From assembly GCF_001701045.1 (NCBI RefSeq), contig NZ_CP016757.1, forward strand, positions 310,001 through 374,000: 64,000 bases of DNA, given 5' to 3'. Within the stretch, counting starts at the first letter, position 1. Each line of letters starts with the position of its first letter. The position numbers and the translations under genes are program-made. The notes beneath the pieces were generated by a model. It ran no database searches. It had not been told where the DNA came from and saw only the letters and a list, made by a program, of their open reading frames with translations. This DNA comes from Cloacibacillus porcorum. GTDB taxonomy: Bacteria > Synergistota > Synergistia > Synergistales > Synergistaceae. This document shows positions 20,940-35,863 of this stretch, piece by piece.

Positions 20940-20999
20940 TTACGGCAATAGACGGCAAAGATTAAGATAAATTCGGAACGCTTGAAAGGGGTCCGTGCA

Positions 21000-23900
21000 A
21001 TGAGAGAAAAGAACCTTGTAACGATGGATGGGAACGAGGCGGCGGCCTATATAGCCTATGCCTTCACCGAGGTGGCGGCGATATATCCGATCACCCCCTC
21101 TTCGCCGATGGCGGAGAAGACGGACGCCTGGTCCGCCAAGGGAAAGAAAAATATCTTCGGGCAGACCGTTTCGCTGATAGAGATGCAGTCTGAGGCCGGC
21201 GCGGCGGCGGCGGTGCATGGCGCGCTTGAGACCGGCGCTTTGGCCGCCTCCTTCACCTCATCGCAGGGGCTGATGCTGATGATCCCCGTGCTTCACAGGC
21301 TTTCGGGGCAGCGCCACCCCGGCGTGCTCCACGTCGCGGCGCGTACCGTCGGCACCCACGCCTTTTCGATCTTCGGCGACCATTCCGACGTGATGAACTG
21401 CCGCCAGTGCGGGCTTGCGATGCTCGCGACGGGCGGCGTGCAGGAGATAATGGATCTCGGCGGCGTCGCGCACCTTGCGGCGATAAAGTCGCGCATCCCC
21501 TTCATGCACTTTTTCGACGGTTTCCGCACCTCCCATGAGATAGACAAGGTGGAGGAGATGCCCTACGAGACGCTTGAATCGCTGCTCGACAGGGAGGCCC
21601 TCGCCGAATTCCGCGCCGCCGCGCTCAACCCCGAGCGCCCGATGATGCGCAGCACCGTGCAGAATCCCGACATTTACTTCCAGGTGCGCGAGGCCAACAA
21701 CGGCTTCTATGACGCGCTGCCCGGCATCGTGGAAGATTATATGGAGAAGATAAGCGCGGTAACCGGCCGCGAATATCACCTCTTCAACTACTACGGAGCG
21801 CCGGACGCCGAAGAGGTGATCGTCGCGATGGGCTCCGTCAGCGGCACGGTTGAGGAGGCCGTTGATTACCTCAACGCGCATGGCAGAAAGACCGGCTTCA
21901 TACAGGTGCACCTCTTCCGTCCCTTCTCGATCAAGCATCTTTTCGCGGTGCTCCCCGCCACGGTGAAAAAGATCGCCGCGCTCGACCGCTGCAAGGAGAT
22001 GGGAGCCAACGGCGGCCCGCTCTATCAGGATATCTGCACCGCCTTTACCGGTTCCGGCCGCGAGGTGACGATCGTCGGCGGACGCTACGGGCTCTCCTCG
22101 AAGGATACCGATCCGACGCAGATCATCGCAGTATTTGACAACCTCGCGAAGGCCGAGCCGAAGAACGACTTTACGATCGGCATCACCGACGACGTGACGT
22201 ACCTCTCGCTGCCGCTTGGCGAGACGGTCTACCCCGACGGCGCGCGCCAGATGTCCTTCAAATTCTGGGGGCTGGGCGGCGACGGTACCGTCGGCGCGAA
22301 CAAAAACACCATCGACATCATCAACAGCTACACGCCGAAATATGGGCAGGCCTATTTTGAATATGACGCGAAAAAATCATTCGGCGTCACCATATCGCAT
22401 CTGCGCTTCTCCGACAGCCCGATACGCTCCTCATACTTCGTGAAGCGGGCTGATTTCGTCGCTGCGCATAACCAGACCTACATCCAGAACTACGACATCG
22501 TCAGCGAACTCAAAGAGGGCGGCACCCTGCTGCTCAACTGCCCGTGGGAGCCGGAGGAGCTTGAAGACAAGATTCCCGCCGACATCCGCCGCAAGCTCGC
22601 GCGGAAAAAGGCGAATTTCTACATCATCAACGCCACCAAGATCGCCGAGAAGCACGGGCTCGGCAGCCACGTCAACATCCCGCTCCAGTCGGCCTTCTTC
22701 CACCTCGTCGATCTCATCCCGATCGAGGAGGCGAAGGAATATATGGCGGACGCCGTGCGGAAAACCTTCTTCGCGAAGGGGGACGAGGTCGTTAACCGCA
22801 ACATCGCGGCGATCGAAGACGGCGGCGCGATGCTCGTGAAGGTTGAAATCCCCGATTCCTGGCTTGACGCCAAAGACGAACCAAAACAGCGCCGCGCCGG
22901 TGAACCGGCGATCGTTGAAAAGCTGCTGGAGCCGATCAACCGCCAGCAGGGGGACAGTCTCCCCGTCAGCGCCTTTAAGGGTTACGAGGACGGCACCGTC
23001 GAGCTGGGCCTTACGGCCTTTGAAAAGCGCGCGATCGCTACCAGCGTCCCCGAGTGGGACCCCGCGCGCTGCATCCAGTGCAACCGCTGCTCCTACGTCT
23101 GCCCGCACGCCGTCATCCGTCCCTACCTCCTCAGCGAAGAGGAAAAAAAGGCGGCCCCCGAGGGTTTCCTGACGATGCCTGCGGTCGGTATGAAGGAGTT
23201 CTCCTTCTCCATGCAGGTGAGCCGCGACGACTGCACCGGCTGCGGCAGCTGCGTCACCGTGTGCCCGGCCAAAGAAAAGGCGCTGACGATGGTGCCGATA
23301 GAAAAATCAAAGTCGCTTCCCGAACAGTGGGCCTTCGGCCTTACCATCTCCGACAAGGAGGGCAAGTTCGATCCCTGGACGGTGAAGGGCAGCCAGTTCC
23401 GCCAGCCGCTGCTTGAATTCTCGGCGGCCTGCGCCGGCTGCGGCGAGACCCCATACGCGAAGCTGATGACGCAGCTCTTCGGAGACCGCGTCTACTGGGC
23501 CAACGCCACCGGCTGTTCGCAGGCCTGGGGCGGCGCGATGCCCGGAATACCCTACACAAAAAATAAAGAGGGCAAGGGACCGGCCTGGTCGAACTCGCTC
23601 TTTGAAAACAACGCCGAATTCAGCCTCGGAATGTTCCTCTCCGTGAAACAGCAGCGCGAGGCACAGAGGCTGCGCGCCGAAAAGCTGCTTGCGGCGGAGA
23701 TCCCCGCGGCGCTGAGGGCGGAGCTTGAGGCGTGGCTCGCGGCCTTCGACGACTTCAACGGCTCCGCGTCGGCGGCGAAAAAGCTGACGGCGGCGCTTAC
23801 TGCGGCCGAACTCACCGGCGAAGCCGCCGTGACGGCGCGGGAAATGCTCGTGAACCGTGACCAGCTTTCTAAAAAGACCTTTTGGATGTACGGCGGCGAC

Positions 23901-24512
23901 GGTTGGGCCTACGACATCGGTTTCGGCGGCCTAGACCACGTCCTCGCGATGGGCGAAAACGTCAACGCGCTGATCGTTGATACCGAAGTCTATTCCAACA
24001 CCGGCGGCCAGTCCTCGAAGTCGACGCCGATCGGCGCCGTAGCGCAGTTCTGCATCAGCGGCAAAAAGGTCGCGAAAAAGGACCTCGGCGCAATGCTCAT
24101 GACCTACGGCAACATATATGTCGCGCAGGTGGCGATGGGCGCGGATATGAACCAGCTCATCAAGGCCATGCGCGAGGCCGAGGAATACGAGGGCCCCTCG
24201 GTGATAATCGCCTACACGCCCTGCCTCGCGCACGGCATCAAGGGCGGTATGGGCAGCGCGCAGGAGGAGATGAAGCGCGCAGTCGCCTCCGGTTACTGGA
24301 CCCTCTACCGCTACGACCCGCGTAAAGAAAAGCCGCTTACGATAGACTCCAAAGCTCCGACGATGGAATATGAGGAGTTCCTAGACGGCGAGGTCCGTTA
24401 CGCGGCGCTGAAACGCACCTTCCCCGAGAACGCGAAGAAATACTTCAAAGAGGGCAGCGAAGAGGCAAAGGCGAAGTACGCGAAGTATAAGCACATGGAA
24501 GACAACCAGTAA
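21000..24512 (+). CDS. nifJ: Pyruvate:ferredoxin (flavodoxin) oxidoreductase, single-chain
   Basis: 1170 residues from the ATG at 21000 (AAAGGGG upstream); a TTG at 20982 is in frame but poorly placed. All domains of the fused enzyme are present in order: pyrimidine-binding domain (YPITPSSPMAE, about 22), the gamma-type domain (FWGLGGDGTVGANKNT), two [4Fe-4S] motifs CIQCNRCSYVCP (about 690) and CTGCGSCVTVCP (about 743), a third cluster Cys in CAGCGETPY (about 815), and the ThDP-binding region GGDGWAYDIGFGG with NTGGQSSKSTP. It converts pyruvate and CoA to acetyl-CoA, CO2 and reduced ferredoxin, a central step in amino-acid fermentation. Hairpin repeats flank it on both sides. Confidence 0.97.
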   Translation: MREKNLVTMDGNEAAAYIAYAFTEVAAIYPITPSSPMAEKTDAWSAKGKKNIFGQTVSLIEMQSEAGAAAAVHGALETGALAASFTSSQGLMLMIPVLHRLSGQRHPGVLHVAARTVGTHAFSIFGDHSDVMNCRQCGLAMLATGGVQEIMDLGGVAHLAAIKSRIPFMHFFDGFRTSHEIDKVEEMPYETLESLLDREALAEFRAAALNPERPMMRSTVQNPDIYFQVREANNGFYDALPGIVEDYMEKISAVTGREYHLFNYYGAPDAEEVIVAMGSVSGTVEEAVDYLNAHGRKTGFIQVHLFRPFSIKHLFAVLPATVKKIAALDRCKEMGANGGPLYQDICTAFTGSGREVTIVGGRYGLSSKDTDPTQIIAVFDNLAKAEPKNDFTIGITDDVTYLSLPLGETVYPDGARQMSFKFWGLGGDGTVGANKNTIDIINSYTPKYGQAYFEYDAKKSFGVTISHLRFSDSPIRSSYFVKRADFVAAHNQTYIQNYDIVSELKEGGTLLLNCPWEPEELEDKIPADIRRKLARKKANFYIINATKIAEKHGLGSHVNIPLQSAFFHLVDLIPIEEAKEYMADAVRKTFFAKGDEVVNRNIAAIEDGGAMLVKVEIPDSWLDAKDEPKQRRAGEPAIVEKLLEPINRQQGDSLPVSAFKGYEDGTVELGLTAFEKRAIATSVPEWDPARCIQCNRCSYVCPHAVIRPYLLSEEEKKAAPEGFLTMPAVGMKEFSFSMQVSRDDCTGCGSCVTVCPAKEKALTMVPIEKSKSLPEQWAFGLTISDKEGKFDPWTVKGSQFRQPLLEFSAACAGCGETPYAKLMTQLFGDRVYWANATGCSQAWGGAMPGIPYTKNKEGKGPAWSNSLFENNAEFSLGMFLSVKQQREAQRLRAEKLLAAEIPAALRAELEAWLAAFDDFNGSASAAKKLTAALTAAELTGEAAVTAREMLVNRDQLSKKTFWMYGGDGWAYDIGFGGLDHVLAMGENVNALIVDTEVYSNTGGQSSKSTPIGAVAQFCISGKKVAKKDLGAMLMTYGNIYVAQVAMGADMNQLIKAMREAEEYEGPSVIIAYTPCLAHGIKGGMGSAQEEMKRAVASGYWTLYRYDPRKEKPLTIDSKAPTMEYEEFLDGEVRYAALKRTFPENAKKYFKEGSEEAKAKYAKYKHMEDNQ

Positions 24513-25035: not shown

Positions 25036-25884
25036 TCAGCAGTAGATATCTCTCTTTTCCCAGATCTCCTCCAGCTCTCCCAGACGGCGAAGGGCTGTGG
25101 GACCCATATATTCCGCCACCTGTATGAGCAGGGCGTTTATAAGCCCTATTGGTATCAATAAGGAATCTATATGCGCGATGTGCGAGCATGGCGCAATGAC
25201 GGCCATATCAGCCTCTCGTGCGAGAGGGCTGTTCATGGAATCGGTTATCGCCGCCGTTTTGAATCCGTTGCTTTTTGCGAAGGCGATGCATTCCACAGTC
25301 TGTCTTGTATAACGCGGAAAACTTATGCCGAGAGTTAAACTGTTCTTAGGAGCCGCGGTAAGATAGTTGCCAAGATTCTCATACGAGGGAATGAAAATTT
25401 TAGGGAAAAACCATGACAGGTAATATTCCATATACTGTACCAGGCAGCGAGTGCTTCGCAGCCCTATCAGATATACGGCTCCCGCCTCACATATCTCTGC
25501 GGCCAGCAGTTTGAGAGCTTTGTCGTTGTCTCCATTGGCTTTCAGATAGTATTTTGCCAGTTCAAGGTCACGCGCTATTACACCGGCGACATAGCCGCCC
25601 TCGTCTGGAAGCAGTTTATGGAGCTGAAGGCGTCCGATGGTGGAGAGCTGACTTTGCGCCTCCAACTGTAACGATTTGATAAAGTCGGGGAAATTCGCGT
25701 ACCCGAGAGTGGACGCCAAACGAATGGCGGAGGCTTCGCTGGAGCCGGCGTTATACCCAAGCTCCGCCGCTGTCATGAAGATAGATTTTTCCTTATTTGA
25801 AAGCATATAAGAAGCGATATTTTTCTGCGCCGAAGGCAACGTTTCAAGGTGCTCCATTATTTTTTGCCAGCTCAATTTGTCCAC
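25036..25884 (-). CDS. RpiR/MurR-family transcriptional regulator
   Basis: 282 residues. The N-terminal helix-turn-helix (about 1-80; SWQKIMEHLETLPSAQKNIASYMLSNKEKSIFMTAAELGYNAGSSEASAIRLASTLGYANFPDF) is HTH_6. The C-terminal half (about 125-260) is a SIS domain (GAVYLIGLRSTR, LGISFPRYTRQTVECIAFAKSNG, AAITDS). RpiR regulators usually sense phosphosugars but also control amino-acid and keto-acid genes. It faces the aminotransferase/TRAP/thiolase operon. The 40-bp palindrome on that operon's promoter, with a GAAGGAATTCCTTC core, is its likely site, probably as a repressor. Confidence 0.92.
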   Translation of the reverse strand: MDKLSWQKIMEHLETLPSAQKNIASYMLSNKEKSIFMTAAELGYNAGSSEASAIRLASTLGYANFPDFIKSLQLEAQSQLSTIGRLQLHKLLPDEGGYVAGVIARDLELAKYYLKANGDNDKALKLLAAEICEAGAVYLIGLRSTRCLVQYMEYYLSWFFPKIFIPSYENLGNYLTAAPKNSLTLGISFPRYTRQTVECIAFAKSNGFKTAAITDSMNSPLAREADMAVIAPCSHIAHIDSLLIPIGLINALLIQVAEYMGPTALRRLGELEEIWEKRDIYC

Positions 25885-25960: not shown

Positions 25961-25989
25961 TTGACAAAATAGCTCAGAAGACTTATAAA
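25961..25989 (+). promoter_or_regulatory. Promoter of the aminotransferase-thiolase operon
   Basis: TTGACA at 25961-25966, a 17-bp spacer, then TATAAA at 25984-25989. The -10 box lies within the large palindrome, so a bound regulator would block it. Confidence 0.75.
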
Positions 25990-26022
25990 TTATATGAAGG
26001 AATTCCTTCATATAATTTATAA
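25983..26022. promoter_or_regulatory. Perfect 40-bp palindrome, likely RpiR operator
   Basis: Every base of the 20-bp left half (TTATAAATTATATGAAGGAA) is matched in the right half, with no spacer. The core TGAAGGAATTCCTTCA resembles sites bound by RpiR-type regulators. It overlaps the -10 box and start point of the downstream operon. Confidence 0.8.
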
Positions 26023-26045
26023 ATATAATTATATTAGTGAACAAA

Positions 26046-26061
26046 TGAAGTATTTCCTTCA
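26046..26061. promoter_or_regulatory. Second, imperfect copy of the RpiR-type site
   Basis: TGAAGTATTTCCTTCA repeats the core of the 40-bp palindrome with two differences, 39 bp beyond its centre end and just before the ribosome site. It suggests cooperative binding. Confidence 0.6.
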
Positions 26062-26087
26062 ATAGATTATACAAAGGAGGGAATTTT

Positions 26088-27428
26088 ATGCAGCAACATT
26101 TATTTCCAAGAAGTTTTAAGACTAATTATTTAGAAGCAGACTACGGTGAAGGTATCTATATCTATGATAAACAGGGTAAAAGGTATCTGGATGGCTGCAG
26201 CGGTGCGCTTATCTCGAATTTAGGACATTGCAACAGAGATATCGTAACGGCGGTAGAGAAACAATTTGGCAGGCTGGAATTTGCCCACCCGTCGCGCTGG
26301 CATGTCGATATAGTGGAAGAGGCCGCGGCGGCCGTTGCCGAGACTGCTTCCGGCGATCTTGACAACGTCTGGTTTGTCAGCGGCGGCAGCGAAGCCGTTG
26401 AGACGGCCTTAAAACTGGCACGGCAATATTATGTTGAGCGTGACGGTGCCGGCAGCAGCAAACATATTACCATCGGCAGATGGAATTCATATCACGGCAG
26501 TACGATCGGCACGATGGCCGTGGCCGGGTCAATGGCACGCCGCCGCGTATTTTCCCCCCTGTTCGCCGAATCGCCGAAGATCCCCTCTACATATTGTTAT
26601 CGCTGCCATTTTCATAAGCAATATCCCCAATGCGGGCTGCTTTGCGCCCGGGCTCTGGAAGAGATGATCCAGATAATCGGGCCGCAGTATATATCCTCGT
26701 TTATCGCGGAGCCGATCGTTGGTTCAACCGTCGGCGCCGTGGTCCCTCCCGACGAGTACTGGCCTATGGTATGGGATATCTGTGACAGATACGACATTCT
26801 CCTAATCGCGGACGAAGTAATGACGGGTTGTGGGCGTACCGGTAAGAACTTCTGCGTTGACCACTGGGATGTCGTCCCTGACATCATCGCCACCGCAAAG
26901 GGCATGGCGGCCGGTTATGTGCCGACGGGTGGAATTATCGCCAGAAATAACATCGTAGAGGCGATCAAAGACGGCAGCGGCGCTTTCATGCACGGCCATA
27001 CGTACAACGGCAACCCTATGAGCGCCGCCGCTGTGGCCGCCGTCTTTAAATATATGAAGGAGCATGGCGTTGTGGAGAATGCCGCGAAGATGGGCGAACT
27101 TCTGGGCGCAGGGCTTAAAAAGATCGGTGAAGAGAGCGCCATAATCGGCGAGGTCCGCGGCAAAGGATTGATGTGGGGTTTTGAGGTCGTGAAAGACAAG
27201 GCGTCGAGGGAGCCGTTTGATAAAAAGACTGCGGCGGCAAATGTGGTTACGAAAGCCTGTATCGAAGAGGGGCTCATCATTTATCCCGGCGGCGGACAGA
27301 TAAGAGGAACCAGCGGAGACAACTTTATGACGGCGCCGCCGCTGATTATCACGGAAATTCAGGTAAAAGAACTCCTGGAAAAGCTGAAAAATGGAATCAA
27401 GAGAGCGGAAGCGGCTCTTGTAAAGTAA
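26088..27428 (+). CDS. Class III (PLP) aminotransferase, omega/beta-amino-acid type
   Basis: 446 residues. Family motifs: DGCSGALISNLGHCN, WFVSGGSEAVETALKLARQYY, a HGST motif (SYHGSTIG), the cofactor-binding LLIADEVMTGCGRTGK, and the PLP lysine in IATAKGMAAGYVP (about 271). A Cys-containing insert (YCYRCHFHKQYPQCGLLCA) is present, as in some relatives. Class III enzymes transfer amino groups from non-alpha positions. Since the downstream genes handle 3-oxoacids, the natural substrate may be a beta-amino acid, inferred from context only. AAAGGAGGG precedes the ATG. First gene of a seven-gene unit. Confidence 0.93.
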   Translation: MQQHLFPRSFKTNYLEADYGEGIYIYDKQGKRYLDGCSGALISNLGHCNRDIVTAVEKQFGRLEFAHPSRWHVDIVEEAAAAVAETASGDLDNVWFVSGGSEAVETALKLARQYYVERDGAGSSKHITIGRWNSYHGSTIGTMAVAGSMARRRVFSPLFAESPKIPSTYCYRCHFHKQYPQCGLLCARALEEMIQIIGPQYISSFIAEPIVGSTVGAVVPPDEYWPMVWDICDRYDILLIADEVMTGCGRTGKNFCVDHWDVVPDIIATAKGMAAGYVPTGGIIARNNIVEAIKDGSGAFMHGHTYNGNPMSAAAVAAVFKYMKEHGVVENAAKMGELLGAGLKKIGEESAIIGEVRGKGLMWGFEVVKDKASREPFDKKTAAANVVTKACIEEGLIIYPGGGQIRGTSGDNFMTAPPLIITEIQVKELLEKLKNGIKRAEAALVK

Positions 27429-27495
27429 GTAGCGTGTTCACACCTCTATAAAGGCCATAAAAGAGGATTTTCTAATTTAGGAGGGAGATTGCAGT

Positions 27496-28452
27496 ATGAA
27501 GAAGAGCAGAGTTTTAATAAGTATGGTTATTTTGGCGCTGTTTGCCTCGGCGGCCTTCGCCACGACATTTGTGACGATCGGTTCCGGAGGAGTCGGAGGC
27601 ACCTATTATCCGCTGGGCGGAGTGATGGCGGAGCTTCTTACCAAGGGTAACGTCGATATCAAGGCGACCTCGCGTTCAACGGCGGCCTCGAAAGAGAACT
27701 GCCGCCTGGTGGCTTCAAACAAGGCCCAGATAGGAATGACGATGGGCTCAACGCTGTATCAGGCGTACACGGGAACGGAAGCTTTCAAAGATGACGGCAA
27801 ACTGCCGCTTTTGACGCTGATGCATATGTATGCCGCTCCGCAGCATTTGGTAACTACGACCAGAACAGGAATCAAAAAGTTCTCTGATATCAAGGGTAAA
27901 AAGGTCTCGCTCGGAGCACAGGGCGGCGGTGACCAGCTCCTTTCCCTGATGATACTTGAGGCGGCGGGTATGGACCCAGACAAGGATCTCCGCAAGCAGC
28001 AGCTCTCTCAGCCTGAGGCGGTAACTGCGCTTAAGGACGGAAATATCGACGCCGCCTTCTTCAACTTTGCGGTCCCCGGCTCTGCGGTCATGGAGATCGC
28101 GGCAGTACGCGACGTGGTGCTGATACCGCTTCCTGATGATGTTATCGCAAAGGTCACGGCGAAACATCCGTTCCTTATGCCCTATACGATAGCTAAAGGC
28201 GCGTATTCAAAACAGGACCAGGACGTCAAGACCGTCGCCGACGGAAATTTCCTTGTCGTTAACGAAAAGCTTCCTGAGAAGGTGGCCTATGACATGGTAA
28301 AGATCTTCATTGAGAAAAAAGAAGACATCATGAAGGTTACGCCTCAGGCGGTAGATTTTACGCCGCAGAAGGCCGGAATAGGCATCATACCGTTCCACAA
28401 AGGAGCGGCCAAATACTTCAAGGAAAAGGGCGTAAACGTAGAGTCGAAATAA
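27496..28452 (+). CDS. TAXI-family TRAP transporter substrate-binding protein
   Basis: 318 residues. A signal peptide (about 1-22, ending AFA) precedes the TAXI hallmark FVTIGSGGVGGTYYPLGGVMAELL. Then come SRSTAASKENCRLV, KKVSLGAQGGGD and the C-terminal GAAKYFKEKG. It is the periplasmic binding protein of a tripartite (TRAP) transporter driven by an ion gradient. TAXI systems take up glutamate, 2-oxoglutarate and other small acids; the ligand here is probably the amino or oxo acid degraded by the flanking enzymes. A hairpin between it and the permease gene may set their expression ratio. Confidence 0.95.
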   Translation: MKKSRVLISMVILALFASAAFATTFVTIGSGGVGGTYYPLGGVMAELLTKGNVDIKATSRSTAASKENCRLVASNKAQIGMTMGSTLYQAYTGTEAFKDDGKLPLLTLMHMYAAPQHLVTTTRTGIKKFSDIKGKKVSLGAQGGGDQLLSLMILEAAGMDPDKDLRKQQLSQPEAVTALKDGNIDAAFFNFAVPGSAVMEIAAVRDVVLIPLPDDVIAKVTAKHPFLMPYTIAKGAYSKQDQDVKTVADGNFLVVNEKLPEKVAYDMVKIFIEKKEDIMKVTPQAVDFTPQKAGIGIIPFHKGAAKYFKEKGVNVESK

Positions 28453-28470
28453 TCATCAACGGACAGATGG

Positions 28471-28506
28471 AACACGGGAAGGCTGAGCTCTTCCCGTGTT
28501 GCTTTT
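28471..28506 (+). terminator. Hairpin between binding protein and permease genes (probable attenuator)
   Basis: AACACGGGAAG and CTTCCCGTGTT form a perfect 11-bp stem with an 8-nt loop, followed by GCTTTT. Partial termination here would give more binding protein than permease, as is common in such operons. Confidence 0.6.
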
Positions 28507-28536
28507 AAGGTTTCCAATTATAGGAGGTTTAGTAGA

Positions 28537-30510
28537 ATGGCTGACGACTCAGGCAAAAAGATGATCCCTCCGACAGAGACTGTACAGGAAGAGAAAGTCA
28601 TTATTGTTGACCCGGAGGAGAGCAAAAAGAGGATATTGTCTGGATACCAGTATTACCTGGTCGCCGGAATCGCAATAATTGCCTCCATATTCCACCTTTA
28701 CACCGCGGCTTTCGGCCTATTCGACGCTATGACGCAGCGGTCGTGGCACTGGATGTTTATGGGATCGCTTCTGTTTCTCTGTTATCCGATGTCTCAGAAG
28801 AGAGGCTCGAAGACAAGGATAGAGTGGCTTGACTGGATATTGGCGGGTGCGCTCGTCTTTGGATGCGCGAACATTCTCTACAATTATGAGGCCATCGCGA
28901 TGCGCGAGGGATCGGCGATACCCTCTGACATATACATAGGCTGCATAATGGTTTTTCTGGTCATTGAGGGCACACGCCGCTCGATGGGGTGGCCGCTGCC
29001 GATAATGGCTATCATCGCTATTCTGTACGGTATCTTTGGCCCTTATATGCCGGGAATTCTGGCGCACGGCGGATTTAATTTAGATGAATTGGCTCCATTT
29101 CTTTATCTCAGAACGGACGGAATCTTTGGCGTACCCCTCGGAGTCTCCGCCTCATTTATATTCCTGTTCATTCTCTTTGGAGCTTTCCTTAGTTCGTCGG
29201 GAGCGGGGCAGTTCTTCATAGACCTTGCCGTCGCGGTAGCGGGCAGGAGTCAGGGCGGTCCCGGTAAGGCCGCCGTCGTCGCGAGCGGCCTGATGGGTAC
29301 GGTATCTGGAAGTTCATGCGGCAACGCCGTCACCACCGGCGCGTTCACGATACCTCTAATGAAGCAGGCTGGTTATAATTCAGAATTTGCCGGAGCGATA
29401 GTTGCCTGCGCCTCGACAGGAGGGCAGGTAATGCCCCCCGTAATGGGAGCGGCGGCCTTCGTTATGGCGCAGTTCCTTGGCGTCTCATACTGGGAGATCG
29501 TCGTTGCGGCGGCGATACCGGCAACGCTTTACTTTATATCGATCATGGCGATGGTCCATTTCCGCGCCGGTAAAAAGCGTATGGCACGCCTTGATAAAGA
29601 GGATATCCCCAAGGTCAGGGTCGTTCTGCGCAATGGAGCTCACCTTCTCCTGCCGATATTGGCACTGATCGTATTTCTCGCGCTGGGTTATTCTCCGACC
29701 ATGGCCGTCTTCTGGTCGATCATTGCGATAATAGTATTTTCATGGCTTGGTGACAAAGAGCACAGGATGACGCCCAAAAAGATCATCGCGGCGTTGATCT
29801 CCGGCGGTACCGGAGCTATCGAGGTGGCGGCCGCCTGCGCCTGCTCCGGCATCGTCATCGGCGTCATCGCCATCACAGGTGTGGGGCTGGCATTTTCCTC
29901 GTTTGTTCTCAGCCTGTCGCACGGAATCCTCCCGCTAGCGCTGATACTGACGATGATCGGTTCGATCATCCTGGGGATGGGTGTGCCCACTACGGCGCAG
30001 TATATCATTACCTCGACTCTGGCCGCGCCAGCGCTTGCTCAGATGGGAGTTCCCATGATGTCGGCGCATCTTTTCTGTCTCTATTTCGGTGTGCTGGCGG
30101 ACGTCACGCCGCCTGTGGCGCTGGCCACCTATGCGGCCTCCGGCATCGCCAAATCGAATCCGATCAAGACTGGTTTTACGGCGCTTGTCACCGCCGCCGC
30201 CGGTTTTCTCGTCCCCTTTATGTTCGTGTACAATCCCTATTTGCTTCTCCAGGGTAATGTATTCCACATATTGATAGGCTGTGTTACGGCACTGATCGGG
30301 ATACTGGGACTCTCTGCCGGAGTGCAGGGTTATCTGGCCAGCGATCTCAATATCGTGGAGAGGCTGCTTTTGCTCTGCGTTCCATTTTTGATAATATATC
30401 CGACTCTGACGAGCAACCTGATCGGAGTCGCGATAATTGCGGCAATTTATATTATGCAGAAGATCAATCTTAAAAAGAAAGGGCTTTCAGGAGAGGGAGG
30501 AATCGTGTGA
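28537..30510 (+). CDS. TRAP transporter fused permease (small and large membrane subunits)
   Basis: 657 residues with about 16-18 predicted membrane segments. The first part (about 30-150) corresponds to the small four-helix subunit. The rest is the DctM-like large subunit, with GTVSGSSCGNAVTTGAFTIPLMKQAGY and STGGQVMPPVMGAAAF, and the second repeat GMGVPTTAQYIITST and DVTPPVALATYAASGIAKS. Fused permeases pair with TAXI binding proteins, as here. It lies 85 bp after the binding-protein gene and its stop overlaps the next start (TGATG). Confidence 0.96.
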   Translation: MADDSGKKMIPPTETVQEEKVIIVDPEESKKRILSGYQYYLVAGIAIIASIFHLYTAAFGLFDAMTQRSWHWMFMGSLLFLCYPMSQKRGSKTRIEWLDWILAGALVFGCANILYNYEAIAMREGSAIPSDIYIGCIMVFLVIEGTRRSMGWPLPIMAIIAILYGIFGPYMPGILAHGGFNLDELAPFLYLRTDGIFGVPLGVSASFIFLFILFGAFLSSSGAGQFFIDLAVAVAGRSQGGPGKAAVVASGLMGTVSGSSCGNAVTTGAFTIPLMKQAGYNSEFAGAIVACASTGGQVMPPVMGAAAFVMAQFLGVSYWEIVVAAAIPATLYFISIMAMVHFRAGKKRMARLDKEDIPKVRVVLRNGAHLLLPILALIVFLALGYSPTMAVFWSIIAIIVFSWLGDKEHRMTPKKIIAALISGGTGAIEVAAACACSGIVIGVIAITGVGLAFSSFVLSLSHGILPLALILTMIGSIILGMGVPTTAQYIITSTLAAPALAQMGVPMMSAHLFCLYFGVLADVTPPVALATYAASGIAKSNPIKTGFTALVTAAAGFLVPFMFVYNPYLLLQGNVFHILIGCVTALIGILGLSAGVQGYLASDLNIVERLLLLCVPFLIIYPTLTSNLIGVAIIAAIYIMQKINLKKKGLSGEGGIV

Positions 30511-31199
30511 TGCCTAAAAAAATCATCAAACCTGTGGTTTCCGCGCAAGAGGCCGTCAAATGTATAAAGAGTGGTGACTCAGTCATGGTTGGCGGGTTCA
30601 ATTACGGCGGCATTCCCTATACGCTCACGGATGCGCTCTACGACCAGGGGACCGACCAGCTGACACTGATTTCCAACGACACGATCTATGAATTCTGCGG
30701 ACAGGGAAAACTTGTCGCAGGCGGGCGCTGTAAGAAGGTGATCGCCTCCCATGTGGGGCTCAACAAGACTACCGGACGGCTCTTTCATGAGGGAAAGATG
30801 GAGCTTGAGCTCTTTCCGCAGGGGACATATGTAGAAAAGATCAGGGCTGGAGGCGCCGGGCTAGGCGGTTTTCTCACTCCGACAGGCGTCGGTACCGTAG
30901 TCGAAGAGGGGAAAGAGGTCATCGAGATCAATGGGAAAAAATATATCCTCGAGCTGCCGCTTACAGCCGACGTCGCCTTGGTGCGGGCCTTCAGGGCCGA
31001 CCGAATGGGCAACCTTACGTACACTGGGACGAACAAGAACTTCAACCCGACGATGGCGACTGCGGCAAAGATCGTAATCGCCGAGGTGGACGAAGTCGTG
31101 AACGTAGGCGAACTGAATCCTGACAACATTGTGACCCAAGGTGTTCTTGTTGATATGCTGGTATTGAAAGGAGATTCCATCTATGCTACCAGAACTTGA
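30510..31199 (+). CDS. 3-oxoacid CoA-transferase, subunit A
   Basis: 229 residues from the ATG at 30510, which overlaps the permease stop; GGAGG is 9 nt upstream (GTG at 30507 is an alternative). The N-terminal VSAQEAVKCIKSGDSVMVGGFNYGGIPYTLTDAL matches the class I CoA-transferase alpha subunit with its GGFG..GIP motif. With subunit B it moves CoA from an acyl-CoA donor (acetyl- or succinyl-CoA type) to a 3-oxoacid, avoiding the cost of ATP. The subunits overlap by 17 bp. Confidence 0.94.
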   Translation: MPKKIIKPVVSAQEAVKCIKSGDSVMVGGFNYGGIPYTLTDALYDQGTDQLTLISNDTIYEFCGQGKLVAGGRCKKVIASHVGLNKTTGRLFHEGKMELELFPQGTYVEKIRAGGAGLGGFLTPTGVGTVVEEGKEVIEINGKKYILELPLTADVALVRAFRADRMGNLTYTGTNKNFNPTMATAAKIVIAEVDEVVNVGELNPDNIVTQGVLVDMLVLKGDSIYATRT

Positions 31200-31863
31200 T
31201 GAACAGCTCGTCAGAGAGCGCATAGCAAAGAGAATAGCCATGGAATTTGAGGAAGGGGAGGTGGTGAACCTCGGCATTGGAATTCCTACGCTTGTCGCCG
31301 ATTACATCCCGGAGGGAAAGCATGTCATATTTCAGGCGGAAAACGGCGCCATCGGTATAGGTCCTCCTCCGTCTGTGCCGAATTACAAGTGCATAGGGGC
31401 CGGTGGGCGCTTTATCAGCCTCCTGCCAGGCGGCAGCTTCTTCTCAAGCGATACGAGTTTCGGGCTTATCAGGGGCGGCCATATCGATGCGACCGTACTG
31501 GGAACGCTGGAGGTCGATCAGCACGGCGATCTCGCAAACTGGTGGATTCCCGGCAAGAGCGTGCCAGGGATGGGAGGGGCGATGGATCTTGTTGTCGGAG
31601 CCAGGCGCGTATATGTGGCGATGACCCATGTTACAAAAAAGGGCGCTCCTAAAATATTAAAGAAATGCACGCTGCCGCTCACGGCGGTCGGCGTTGTGGA
31701 TATGGTTGTGACAGAGTTTGCCGTATTTACAATAAAGGATGGAAAGGTGACCCTGATAGAGATCGCTCCGGAGGTGACCCAGGAACAGATAAGGGCAAAT
31801 ACAGAGGCCGATTATGAAGTTGCGGAGGATATTGCTGTCTATCGTGGATTGGAGGTCGCATAA
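31183..31863 (+). CDS. 3-oxoacid CoA-transferase, subunit B
   Basis: 226 residues. Contains VNLGIGIPTLVADYIPEGKHVIFQAENGAIGIGP, including the ENG motif whose Glu forms the covalent CoA thioester. Also present are SDTSFGLIRGGHIDATVLGTLEVDQHGDLANWWIPGK and GMGGAMDLV. These are the standard features of the beta subunit of acetoacetyl-/3-oxoacid CoA-transferases. Its stop is directly followed by the thiolase start, consistent with a single functional module. Confidence 0.94.
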   Translation: MLPELDEQLVRERIAKRIAMEFEEGEVVNLGIGIPTLVADYIPEGKHVIFQAENGAIGIGPPPSVPNYKCIGAGGRFISLLPGGSFFSSDTSFGLIRGGHIDATVLGTLEVDQHGDLANWWIPGKSVPGMGGAMDLVVGARRVYVAMTHVTKKGAPKILKKCTLPLTAVGVVDMVVTEFAVFTIKDGKVTLIEIAPEVTQEQIRANTEADYEVAEDIAVYRGLEVA

Positions 31864-33054
31864 ATGGAAAAGGCCGTTATTTTAAGCGCCTGCCGCACTG
31901 CCGGCGGAAAATTCGGCGGACAGTTTAAAAAATTTTCCGCGACGGATCTGGGAGCGTTCGCGCTCAAAGAGGCGGTGCTTCGTTCCGGCGCTCCGTGTGA
32001 ATCGGTGGAAGAGGTCATTTTAGGCAACGGCTGGCAGGCTGGCGTGGGAGCCAATCCGGCACGTAACGCGATGTATAAAGCCGGTATCCCTGTAAATGTT
32101 CCCGCCTTCACCGTCAATATCCGCTGCGGTTCGGGGCTGCGCACAGCCATGTTGGCCGCCGACAGGATACGTCTCGGCGACGCGAAGGCGATCCTCGCCG
32201 GAGGTATGGAAAGCGCTACCAACACCCCCTATCTTCTGCCTAGCGCCCGCTGGGGATTCCGTATGGGCAAACAAGAGGCGCTTGACGCGCTGCACGCCGA
32301 CGGCTTCCAATGTCCTTTGGCGGGTGCGCTTATGGGAGAGATAACTGAGAATTACGTGATACCCGAGCTCTCCATTACCCGCGAAGAGCAGGACGAATTT
32401 TCATACTACAGCCATAAAAAGGCGGCAGAGGCTATAGAGAAGGGCCTGTTCAAGGATGAGATCGTACCGATAACATTAAAAGATAAGAAAAAAGGCGAGC
32501 TTATTTTAGATACGGACGAGATACCGCGCAGGGATATTTCGCTGGAAGCGTTGGCAAAGCTGCCGACGATCTTTAAAAAAGAAAATGGTACGATAACGGC
32601 AGGTTCCAGCTCTGCGCTCTGTGACGCGGGAAGCGCGGTATTTGTCGCTGGCGCGGAATGGGCACGGGTGAACGGATTGAAGCCAATGGCGGAGATCGTG
32701 AGCTATGCAGTTACGGCGACCGACCCGCAGCACTTCCCGATCGCTCCCGTTGATGCGATGAGAATAGCTCTTGACAAGGCGGGCATGACCCTGGAAGAGA
32801 TGGAATTGATCGAACTCAACGAGGCCTTCGCGGCTCAGGTGATCGCCTGCCATAGAAAAATGCCGTTTGACATGGAAAAGCTCAACGTACACGGCGGAGC
32901 GATATCTCTGGGGCATCCCATAGGAGCCAGCGGGGCGAAAATATTAACGACTTTGATCTATAGCCTCATCAATCAGAATAAAGAGATCGGCATGGCCAGC
33001 GCCTGTATCGGCGGCGGTCAGGGGGTTGCAATGGTGATTCGGATAATAAAATAG
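31864..33054 (+). CDS. Acetyl-CoA acetyltransferase-type thiolase
   Basis: 396 residues with all thiolase active-site motifs: nucleophilic Cys in NIRCGSGLRTA (about 90), NEAFAAQ, the His in GGAISLGHPIGASG (about 352) and the second Cys in ACIGGGQG (about 380). It cleaves a 3-oxoacyl-CoA with CoA into acetyl-CoA and a shortened acyl-CoA. It starts one base after the CoA-transferase B stop. With the aminotransferase, transporter and CoA-transferase it makes a complete uptake-deamination-activation-cleavage pathway. A terminator follows. Confidence 0.95.
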   Translation: MEKAVILSACRTAGGKFGGQFKKFSATDLGAFALKEAVLRSGAPCESVEEVILGNGWQAGVGANPARNAMYKAGIPVNVPAFTVNIRCGSGLRTAMLAADRIRLGDAKAILAGGMESATNTPYLLPSARWGFRMGKQEALDALHADGFQCPLAGALMGEITENYVIPELSITREEQDEFSYYSHKKAAEAIEKGLFKDEIVPITLKDKKKGELILDTDEIPRRDISLEALAKLPTIFKKENGTITAGSSSALCDAGSAVFVAGAEWARVNGLKPMAEIVSYAVTATDPQHFPIAPVDAMRIALDKAGMTLEEMELIELNEAFAAQVIACHRKMPFDMEKLNVHGGAISLGHPIGASGAKILTTLIYSLINQNKEIGMASACIGGGQGVAMVIRIIK

Positions 33055-33113: not shown

Positions 33114-33160
33114 GGCAAGGGGAGATTTCGTTCCGGCGTCTCTCCTTGCCATTTTGTTTT
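33114..33160 (+). terminator. Terminator of the thiolase operon
   Basis: GGCAAGGGGAGA and TCTCTCCTTGCC form a long stem followed by ATTTTGTTTT. Confidence 0.75.
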
Positions 33161-33931
33161 CTAATCTATCAGCCTGCCGCCCTCGACGAAGACCGTCTGT
33201 CCCGTTATGTAGGAGGCGCCCTCGGAGGCGAGGAAGAGGGCCGTGGCGGCGACGTCGCACGGGCGGCCGAAGCGGGCCAAGGGGATGTGCGCGAGCAGTT
33301 TGTCGCGGGTCGCCTGGTCGCTCAGGTAGCGTTCCGTCTGCGGCGTTACGACGTAACCTGGGGCGACGGCGTTGACGTTGATGCCGTATTCGGCCCACTC
33401 GTGGGCCAGCACCTTTGTCAGCTGGCGGATGCCGCCCTTCGCGGCGGCGTATGCCGCGAGGTTTTTGTGGCCGCGCGCCGAGGAGACGGAGGAGGTGTTT
33501 ATTATCTTGCCCCTGACGCCGTTGTCCACCATGCGCCGGGCGACGGCGGCCGCGGTAAAGAAGACGGCCTTCAGGTCGACGTCCAGCAGTCTGTCCCACT
33601 CGCTTTCCGTGTACTCAAGCGCCGGTTTTCTGTTGTTGAATCCGGCGTGGTTGCAGAGGATGTCGATCCTCCCAAGTCTGTCGATGCACTCCGCGACCAT
33701 TGTGGGAATGCTTTCCGTCTTCAGTAGGTCGCAGCTTACGAAACAGGCTTCGGCGTTTAGGGCGCGGCAGTCCGCGAGCACCGCCTTCGCCGCCTCCATG
33801 TTTCTGCCGGTGATCGCCACCTTCGCGCCGCAGGAGGCGAAGGCACGCGCCAACTCGCCGCCGATGCCGCCGGTCCCGCCTGTGATAAGTACGCTCTTTC
33901 CCCTGAAATCCATCATATTTTTGTAGTCCAT
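33161..33931 (-). CDS. SDR-family oxidoreductase
   Basis: 256 residues from the ATG at 33931 (AGAGGT upstream; the longer frame to 34027 has no ribosome site and reads through the neighbouring terminator). Classical short-chain dehydrogenase: ITGGTGGIGGELARAF (cofactor loop TGxxxGxG), NHAG, catalytic Ser in NTSSVSS and Tyr-Lys in YAAAK, and C-terminal YITGQTVFVEGG. It reduces or oxidises a small carbonyl or hydroxyl compound with NAD(P). The Arg-rich region after beta-2 (GRNM) favours NADP, as an inference. It convergently meets the thiolase operon. Confidence 0.92.
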   Translation of the reverse strand: MDYKNMMDFRGKSVLITGGTGGIGGELARAFASCGAKVAITGRNMEAAKAVLADCRALNAEACFVSCDLLKTESIPTMVAECIDRLGRIDILCNHAGFNNRKPALEYTESEWDRLLDVDLKAVFFTAAAVARRMVDNGVRGKIINTSSVSSARGHKNLAAYAAAKGGIRQLTKVLAHEWAEYGINVNAVAPGYVVTPQTERYLSDQATRDKLLAHIPLARFGRPCDVAATALFLASEGASYITGQTVFVEGGRLID

Positions 33932-33981
33932 AAAGATACCTCTGATCTTTGCAGGATAGGGATATTTTACCCTAAATGTGT

Positions 33982-34020
33982 AAAAAACGACCCTTCGCCG
34001 TAGGGCGGAGGATCGTTTTT
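33982..34020 (-). terminator. Terminator of the ThDP enzyme gene
   Basis: Read on the minus strand: AAAAACGA..CCTcCGCC..GGCGaAGG..TCGTTTTTT, a hairpin with flanking A and T runs. It sits 20 bp after the stop codon and would work on that strand. Confidence 0.75.
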
Positions 34021-34039
34021 GGGGCATCTTTTATATTAT

Positions 34040-35767
34040 CTAGTATGTCATATCCTCGTCTTTGGCGATCTTCGCGGCGGCCCAGCCGGGAACTGGGGGA
34101 AGCTGCCGGTCTTCCGGCGGCAGCGGTACGTCGATGAGGCTTGGCCCGTCGGCGGCGAGGCATTTTTTGAATACCTCCTCAAACTCCTTCATGCCGCCCA
34201 CGCGGTAGCCTCTGAGTCCCATGGATTCGGCAAATTTAACGTAGTCGACCTCCGCAAAGTCGGTGAAGCGGCGGAAGCTTTCTGTGATCTCCGCTTTGCT
34301 GTGGACGCGCTGGGTGCCGCGTATCCAGCCGAAGGCCCCGTTATTGAAGAGGACGTAAACGATCTTCAGCCCGAGGCGAGCCGCCGTCTCCAGCTCCGCG
34401 CCGCAGAAGCCGAAGCTGCCGTCGCCGATGAGCCCTATCACGGGGGCCTCCGCCGCCGTACCGCACCGTGCCCCCATTGCCGCCGGTATCGCGTAGCCGA
34501 GCGCGCCCATGGAGAAGTTGTAGGCGGCGCGCCTGCCCGCGCGTCCGATACGCAGGAAGCAGGAGGAGTAGATCGCCGAACTTCCGGGGTCGACGGCGAA
34601 GAAGGTTGTATCGGGTGTCAGCCTCTCGACCGCGCGCACGAGTGAAAGCGGGTGCAGCTCGTCGCCGTAACGCGCCATTACGCCCTCCAGCCTCTTTTCA
34701 TGCGCCGCCTTTTCTTCGGCGCAGCGCGCGGCCCACGCGCCGCGGTCTGGGCGCGGCATTCCTTCAAGCGCCGCCGCGAGGGCCGCGAGCGTCTCGCGCA
34801 CGTCCCCGAAGAGCGGCAGCGCGTCATAGTTGTTGCCAAGCTCGCGTTCGGAGATATCTATCTGGATAAACTTCTGCACCGAAGCTGGCGAGGGGATGTT
34901 CCAGCCGTCCGTATTGGCGGAGTCGGTACTGGTCGCCGCGAAGAGCACGACGTCGGCCTCTTTTATCATCTTGTTGTTCCACTCACGGCCGCCGCGCGCG
35001 CCGATGACGCCCATCGACAGCGCCTCCTGGTCGCTAATACAGCCCTTGGCGTTGATCGTAGAGCCCACCGGCATATCCTGCATCTTTGACAGCTGCGCCG
35101 CCTCCTCCCAGGCTGAGGAGTGGACGACCCCCTGTCCGCAGATCATCACCGGGCGGCGCGCCGCGGCAAGTATCTTCGCCGCCTCCATGATGTCCGCCGC
35201 CGCCGCGCTGTTCCGGCATCCGGGGAAGGCCGCGTAACGGCTCTGCGCATATATATCGCCGTCCGCCACTTCACCCTCTAAGGTATCCATCGGGATGCGG
35301 ATGTGGACGGGGCCGGGACGGCCGGTCGTTGCGGTGCGGAAGGCGCGCCGGAAGAGGTGCGGTATCTCGCTGGCGTCGGTGACGGTGAGGGAATCTTTGG
35401 CGATGCTTTTGAAGAGCGCCGACTGGTCGAAGCCGGTCAGCATATTTTTGGGCCCCGTCTTGAGGTCGATGTCGGTCGTCATTACGATGAGCGGCACGCA
35501 GGACTGGAAGGCTTCGACGACGCCGGGCACCATGTGCGTAGCGCCGACGCTCGGTCCCTCGCAGATCCCGACGCGGCCGGTGGCCTTCGCGTAGGCGTCG
35601 GCCATAAAGACGGAGTTCCTCTCGTCTCTCGTAAGGTGGTATTTTATCTCGGGATATTCCTCCCAGGCTTCGTAGAGGCTCAGCGTCGTCTCGCCGGGCA
35701 GGCCGAAGACATCGGTCACGTTATAAGCCTTGAGCATCGCAAGAACTGCTTTGCTTGCCTTCATCAT
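34040..35767 (-). CDS. Thiamine-diphosphate enzyme, acetolactate-synthase-like
   Basis: 575 residues from the ATG at 35767 (GAGGGG upstream; a longer frame to 35845 crosses the promoter). N-terminal pyrimidine domain with VFGLPGETTLSLYEAW and the catalytic Glu in LTRDERNSVFMADAYAKATG. A central domain follows, then a C-terminal PP domain with GDGSFGFCGAELETAARLGLKIVYVLFNNGAFGW, the GDG-x-NN ThDP/Mg motif. It belongs to the ALS/pyruvate oxidase/benzoylformate decarboxylase superfamily; no regulatory small subunit gene is adjacent, so a catabolic 2-oxoacid decarboxylase or synthase is likelier than biosynthetic ALS. Substrate unknown. Confidence 0.92.
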   Translation of the reverse strand: MMKASKAVLAMLKAYNVTDVFGLPGETTLSLYEAWEEYPEIKYHLTRDERNSVFMADAYAKATGRVGICEGPSVGATHMVPGVVEAFQSCVPLIVMTTDIDLKTGPKNMLTGFDQSALFKSIAKDSLTVTDASEIPHLFRRAFRTATTGRPGPVHIRIPMDTLEGEVADGDIYAQSRYAAFPGCRNSAAAADIMEAAKILAAARRPVMICGQGVVHSSAWEEAAQLSKMQDMPVGSTINAKGCISDQEALSMGVIGARGGREWNNKMIKEADVVLFAATSTDSANTDGWNIPSPASVQKFIQIDISERELGNNYDALPLFGDVRETLAALAAALEGMPRPDRGAWAARCAEEKAAHEKRLEGVMARYGDELHPLSLVRAVERLTPDTTFFAVDPGSSAIYSSCFLRIGRAGRRAAYNFSMGALGYAIPAAMGARCGTAAEAPVIGLIGDGSFGFCGAELETAARLGLKIVYVLFNNGAFGWIRGTQRVHSKAEITESFRRFTDFAEVDYVKFAESMGLRGYRVGGMKEFEEVFKKCLAADGPSLIDVPLPPEDRQLPPVPGWAAAKIAKDEDMTY

Positions 35768-35804
35768 ATCTTCCCCTCTCAAGAAATTCTCTATTGAATT
35801 ATTA

Positions 35805-35863
35805 TTCATCACAAATGATTGATTAGCTGTCATAAGATTACCCAATTAATCGCGTTTGGTCAA
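35805..35863 (-). promoter_or_regulatory. Promoter and operator-like site of the ThDP enzyme gene
   Basis: On the minus strand: TTGACC (35863-35858), 17-bp spacer, TAATCT (35840-35835). Just downstream is ATCATTTGTGATGAA (35819-35805), which matches 14 of 15 bases of a site below the NIF3-like gene promoter. Confidence 0.6.

Follow-up and report, generated by a model that had tools for sequence, protein, structure and literature searches.

The locus described here raises the question of which compound is degraded by six closely packed genes, encoding a class III aminotransferase, a TAXI-TRAP importer, both subunits of a CoA-transferase and a thiolase, and of how these genes are controlled. 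The window, which is the whole stretch of DNA that was analysed, comprises 64,000 nucleotides and runs from base 310001 to base 374000 of a closed genome of 3.585 Mb that belongs to Synergistota; its relevant features are collected in Table 1. All six operon genes are intact and lie on the same strand, and their coordinates agree with an earlier note on this DNA, which had described them as running in one direction with overlaps or tight spacing. The TRAP permease and CoA-transferase A genes overlap by 4 bp and the CoA-transferase A and B genes by 17 bp, and the thiolase gene starts at the first base past the end of the CoA-transferase B gene. The start codon of the CoA-transferase A gene is GTG or, alternatively, ATG at 30510. 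The range singled out in the earlier note, 25961-33054, begins exactly at the TTGACA of the promoter, and the RpiR gene lies just outside it. The observation that the operon contains no dehydrogenase or hydratase was also borne out, the nearest SDR gene (33161-34027) being on the opposite strand past a strong hairpin, which separates the convergent thiolase and SDR genes and which a consensus scan had omitted from its list.

Table 1 Features of the operon and its immediate surroundings, with positions in the window.
Feature	Position	Strand	Basis or predicted role
RpiR/MurR-family regulator, divergent	25036-25884	-	PF01418 (HTH_6) 38.4 bits and PF01380 (SIS) 47.7 bits, both above cut-off
Probable sigma-70-type promoter, TTGACA-17-TATAAA	25961-25989	+	Sequence; similar promoter followed by palindrome in L036-L042
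Perfect inverted repeat, 20+20 bp, over the -10 box	25983-26022	.	Contains core operator O1
O1 core operator, TGAAGGAATTCCTTCA	25995-26010	.	Candidate RpiR site
O2 operator-like palindrome, TGAAGTATTTCCTTCA	26046-26061	.	Sequence
Class III aminotransferase, YodT-like	26088-27428	+	PF00202, 302.8 bits; predicted β-transaminase yielding a 3-oxoacid
TAXI-family TRAP substrate-binding protein	27496-28452	+	TIGR02122, 278.6 bits (cut-off 84)
Fused TRAP permease	28537-30510	+	TIGR02123, 717 bits (cut-off 321)
3-oxoacid CoA-transferase subunit A	30507-31199	+	TIGR02429, 220.6 bits (cut-off 128.5)
3-oxoacid CoA-transferase subunit B, with ENG motif	31183-31863	+	TIGR02428, 292.4 bits (cut-off 243.6)
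AtoB-type thiolase	31864-33054	+	TIGR01930, 421 bits (cut-off 240.6); predicted 3-oxoacyl-CoA cleavage
Hairpin with T-rich tail, probable terminator	33114-33150	.	-25.3 kcal/mol, z -5.0

The final enzymes of the operon were assigned from curated models. Both CoA-transferase subunits scored above the cut-offs for a 3-oxoacid CoA-transferase, and the thiolase scored above that for an acetyl-CoA C-acyltransferase; its sequence contains NIRCGSG, GHPIGASG and CIGGGQG, which we take to be the thiolase catalytic motifs. The nearest solved relatives of CoA-transferase B are butyrate-acetoacetate and acetate CoA-transferases and those of the thiolase are acetyl-CoA acetyltransferases, and these relatives do not settle the chain length. 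The genome was found to encode two thiolases.

The assignment of the aminotransferase depended more on its family. Its best NCBIfam match was the YodT equivalog PRK06917 (NF005375), but the score of 493 bits did not reach the cut-off of 535, and the cut-off of 485 for PRK07483 (NF005685) was not reached either (472 bits); a KamA-linked protein from locus L100 scored 748 bits against PRK06917. Residues K271 and D242 were invariant across 22 aminotransferase homologues. Eighty loci from named genomes were retrieved with the aminotransferase alignment, two from Synergistota (L087 and L088) and the rest from outside the phylum, and modules were counted in the 73 loci longer than 8 kb. A 3-oxoacid CoA-transferase without BKACE (β-keto-acid cleavage enzyme, not related to either CoA-transferase or thiolase) was present in 27 of these loci, BKACE without CoA-transferase in 22 and both in one; neither was present in 23, so that not every relative need make a 3-oxoacid. 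The two modules avoid each other (Fisher 2e-5 across 73 phylogenetically non-independent rows), and at least eight switches between them were found on the aminotransferase tree, a count that depends less on kinship than the Fisher value, which ignores it. Such replacement is consistent with both modules using one kind of product. BKACE lies 18-120 bp from the aminotransferase gene in 22 of the 23 loci that contain it, for example after a gap of 29 bp in Soehngenia L091. Because the substrates of BKACE enzymes are β-keto acids in free form, these loci argue for transamination of the free acid.

A third context was found in Bacilli. In nine loci the aminotransferase family occurs near KamA (lysine 2,3-aminomutase), in most cases together with AblB (β-lysine N-acetyltransferase), and for L100 the assignments of KamA, of AblB and of a deacylase were confirmed with curated models. 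Genes for GabT and an aldehyde dehydrogenase also adjoin the operon in Paenibacillus L098, which can be read as a route from β-lysine to GABA. The link to β-lysine is itself contextual, because the function of YodT, the Bacillus subtilis member, is not known (PMC6522883). Taken with the alternation of modules, the KamA/AblB linkage supports the proposal of the earlier note that the aminotransferase product should be a 3-oxoacid, and at the level of substrate class the same contexts make a β-amino acid the likely substrate. A paralogue with 65% identity is encoded in the same genome (L034, bases 664001-684000), where genes for a TAXI protein and a TRAP permease are followed by that for the aminotransferase, beside IlvD-like and 3-hydroxyisobutyrate-dehydrogenase-like genes (L034 4434-11511) and with no CoA-transferase or thiolase; given these different neighbours, a close homologue may serve another function. 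In Soehngenia L091:4249-11173, amidohydrolase-like, DmpA-like and RidA-like genes, all named by eye, stand in a row with the aminotransferase and BKACE genes.

The importer was assigned to the TAXI-TRAP group because both the binding protein and the fused permease scored above cut-off. In the glutamate-binding TAXI protein VcGluP, Q93 and Y45 are key determinants for glutamate, and Q93 and E125 hold its amino group (PMC11574862). The window protein retains the tyrosine and the equivalent of S75, the last serine of STGGS, but has methionine for Q93 and alanine for E125 and so lacks the glutamate-specific set. Among the aligned operon TAXI orthologues, position 93 is methionine in all except L075 (threonine) and position 125 is alanine in all except L085 (serine), whereas the TAXI paralogue in L034 retains glutamine at 93 and has aspartate at 125. 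These losses make it probable that the ligand is bound in some way other than as an L-α-amino acid. VcGluP and TtGluBP (PMC11574862) belong to the same sequence family as the operon proteins, which keep the Y45, G156 and mostly the D157 equivalents, but differ in these two residues and in their operon.

The earlier note had also placed the operon under RpiR control. The divergent gene encodes HTH_6 and SIS domains, as in RpiR regulators. Such regulators usually sense phosphosugars, which counts against the β-amino acid reading. The probable promoter, which the consensus scan omitted because it requires T as the last -10 base, is overlapped by a palindrome whose core, O1, is the sole perfect copy in the genome; O1 and O2 are the only sites with at most one mismatch to it. 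Allowing two mismatches added two further sites, and a reversed control pattern gave a similar count, so that only close matches are informative. A relaxed motif, TGMAGGAWWTCCTKCA, was found with up to two mismatches 5' of the aminotransferase or RpiR gene in 30 of 49 loci, against 0.10 expected from shuffles, although the relaxation was made after the sequences had been viewed. These sites support control by RpiR, and their conservation leads us to predict that RpiR binds the palindrome and represses the operon.

Conservation of the arrangement was examined across the phylum. Aminotransferase homologues (E < 1e-100) were present in 66 of 188 Synergistota genomes, and all six genes occurred together in 38 of the 48 Synergistota loci inspected, in eight family groups, which indicates that the operon is not a chance arrangement. 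An RpiR orthologue adjoins the operon in 32 of these 38 full loci. The importer is missing in five of the 48, and three of the remaining incomplete loci are on short contigs; in L075 and L085 the gene order is changed and the set is still together. A second, diverged thiolase-CoA-transferase-aminotransferase cluster is present in L039, L041 and L056. Gene orders were taken from tblastn because simple ORF calling picked antisense ORFs in G+C-rich loci (for example cluster c7).

The origin of the substrate was approached through KamA. A local source of β-lysine and BKACE as the genome's own route were both rejected, since the KamA search of the genome gave no match above cut-off and BKACE is absent from it; the β-amino acid is therefore probably imported. 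KamA was also not found in the one genome of the same genus. Across Synergistota, KamA occurs in 31 of 66 genomes with the aminotransferase and in 11 of 122 without it, an association confounded by kinship, for which these counts are uncorrected. At other Synergistota KamA loci no lysine-fermentation neighbours were recognised in those read by eye; in L188:6575-10208 the KamA gene lies downstream of two D-Ala-D-Ala-ligase-like genes.

From the gene content, conservation, promoter and operator sequences and family contexts, we infer the activities of the enzymes, the uptake step, repression as the mode of control and the substrate as follows. The genes probably form a catabolic operon that is repressed by RpiR and serves to break down a β-amino acid taken up from outside. 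Uptake would be through the TAXI-TRAP importer, and the aminotransferase would remove the β-amino group of the free acid, with 2-oxoglutarate or pyruvate as acceptor, to give a 3-oxoacid. The CoA-transferase would convert this to a 3-oxoacyl-CoA, with acetyl-CoA or a different acyl-CoA as CoA donor, and CoA-dependent cleavage by the thiolase would release acetyl-CoA together with an acyl-CoA shortened by two carbons, both of which would feed fermentation. As long as no inducer is present, RpiR would occupy TGAAGGAATTCCTTCA sites at the promoter. Candidate substrates are 3-aminobutyrate, β-lysine derivatives, β-leucine and β-glutamate. The description of the operon as a complete route holds from β-amino acid to acetyl-CoA and the shorter acyl-CoA, but the fate of the latter lies outside the operon.

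Four other explanations were weighed against this one. β-Lysine or N6-acetyl-β-lysine as the actual substrate, with the thiolase yielding 4-(acet)amidobutyryl-CoA and feeding the GABA pool, would be a special case of the β-amino acid reading, and is rather unlikely here. It draws on the linkage to KamA, AblB and YodQ in Bacilli, on the Paenibacillus locus with its GabT and aldehyde dehydrogenase, and on the enrichment of KamA in aminotransferase-bearing Synergistota genomes, uncorrected for relatedness as that is. Against it, KamA was not found above cut-off in this genome or in its congener, YodQ is absent from the Synergistota loci, and no obvious GabT was seen, from context and by eye, among the eight class III aminotransferase loci. 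Furthermore, the Synergistota and KamA-linked aminotransferases share the family-specific residues F65, R131, G198, M245 and Y399 but show fixed differences at 66, 71 and 270, the last adjoining the catalytic lysine, which is a weak hint of different substrates. An aminotransferase acting on an α-amino acid or ω-amine, beside a CoA-transferase and thiolase that serve an unrelated acetoacetate pool, is very improbable: class III aminotransferases are mostly ω-specific and the L034 paralogue has no CoA module, but the persistent adjacency to two unrelated β-keto-acid modules and to β-lysine genes, and the TAXI loss of residues that hold the α-amino group in VcGluP, speak against it.

The order of the steps could also differ. 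In a distinctly unlikely version the CoA-transferase would act first to give a β-aminoacyl-CoA, a Kat-like acyl-CoA β-transaminase would follow and the thiolase would then cleave the product. The class III enzyme Kat from Candidatus Cloacimonas has been proven to convert 3-aminobutyryl-CoA to acetoacetyl-CoA and needs the thioester, and its gene likewise adjoins a thiolase gene (PMC3149608). Kat is HemL-like, however, whereas the window aminotransferase is only 29% identical to the HemL of its own genome, and HemL was absent among its 25 best NCBIfam matches; the presence of BKACE, and of no CoA-transferase, beside relatives in 22 of the 73 loci also fits a free keto acid product. Finally, the operon might run towards synthesis, with the thiolase and CoA-transferase assembling a 3-oxoacid for amination to an osmolyte of the β-amino acid type. 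Each of the three enzymatic steps can in principle be reversed, but the linked importer, which only a minority of loci lack, and the fermentative setting are more in keeping with catabolism, and the biosynthetic direction appears extremely improbable.

The catabolic reading resembles known systems in part. Degradation of β-lysine, which involves N6-acetyl-β-lysine transaminase (EC 2.6.1.65) and, in Bacillus, the kamA-yodPQRST genes, follows the same three-step logic. It shares with the window operon the aminotransferase family, the 3-oxoacid CoA-transferase pair and, in several loci, the thiolase; the window operon instead lacks KamA, AblB and YodQ, has the TAXI-TRAP importer and RpiR, and encodes an aminotransferase only about 38-45% identical. 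The suggestion of a poorly described fermentation is accordingly fair for this phylum, but the logic itself is known; what is new is the importer, the regulator and its operator, and the spread of the system through the phylum, and the biochemistry is not new in kind. Kat is another class III enzyme of an anaerobe whose β-transamination supplies acetoacetyl-CoA for thiolysis, but it is of the HemL-like subfamily, accepts only CoA esters and belongs to lysine fermentation (PMC3149608). The BKACE-linked loci (for example L091 and L141) have the same aminotransferase family, but there the product would pass to the cleavage enzyme and not to CoA-transferase and thiolase. The open-access literature searched on the operon, the N6-acetyl-β-lysine transaminase gene and 3-aminobutyrate fermentation held no report of this system. 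A more tentative possibility is that much of Synergistota has a fermentation dedicated to a TAXI-imported β-amino acid that has so far not been counted among bacterial energy sources in their habitats, with a new TAXI specificity; the substrate may be, for example, a methanogen osmolyte (such as N6-acetyl-β-lysine or β-glutamate) or 3-aminobutyrate. The analysis provides a testable function for a conserved operon of Synergistota, anaerobes of guts and digesters that are still poorly understood as a phylum. It predicts β-keto acids as the products of the YodT-like aminotransferase family, uncharacterised so far, and points to a TAXI protein whose ligand is apparently new and to a candidate operator usable for inducer screening.

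Several neighbouring genes were noted in passing. Upstream of the RpiR gene, at 20982-24512 of the window, is a gene that was judged by eye to be pyruvate:ferredoxin-oxidoreductase-like; it has the same place in L036, and a similar-looking gene precedes the aminotransferase gene in Desulfobulbaceae L092. SDR and ThDP-dependent enzyme genes lie on the opposite strand beside the operon (33161-35845), and the ThDP protein was below the cut-off of every model among the matches listed. In the Synergistota locus L068:16402-19212 a molybdopterin-dependent aldehyde oxidoreductase gene is found 3' of the thiolase gene, and a gene resembling it is close to the second cluster in L041. In L043, L044 and L057 the aminotransferase gene has transporter-like genes and a C69-dipeptidase-like gene in its neighbourhood, the latter scoring 240 in L044 against a model cut-off of 250.
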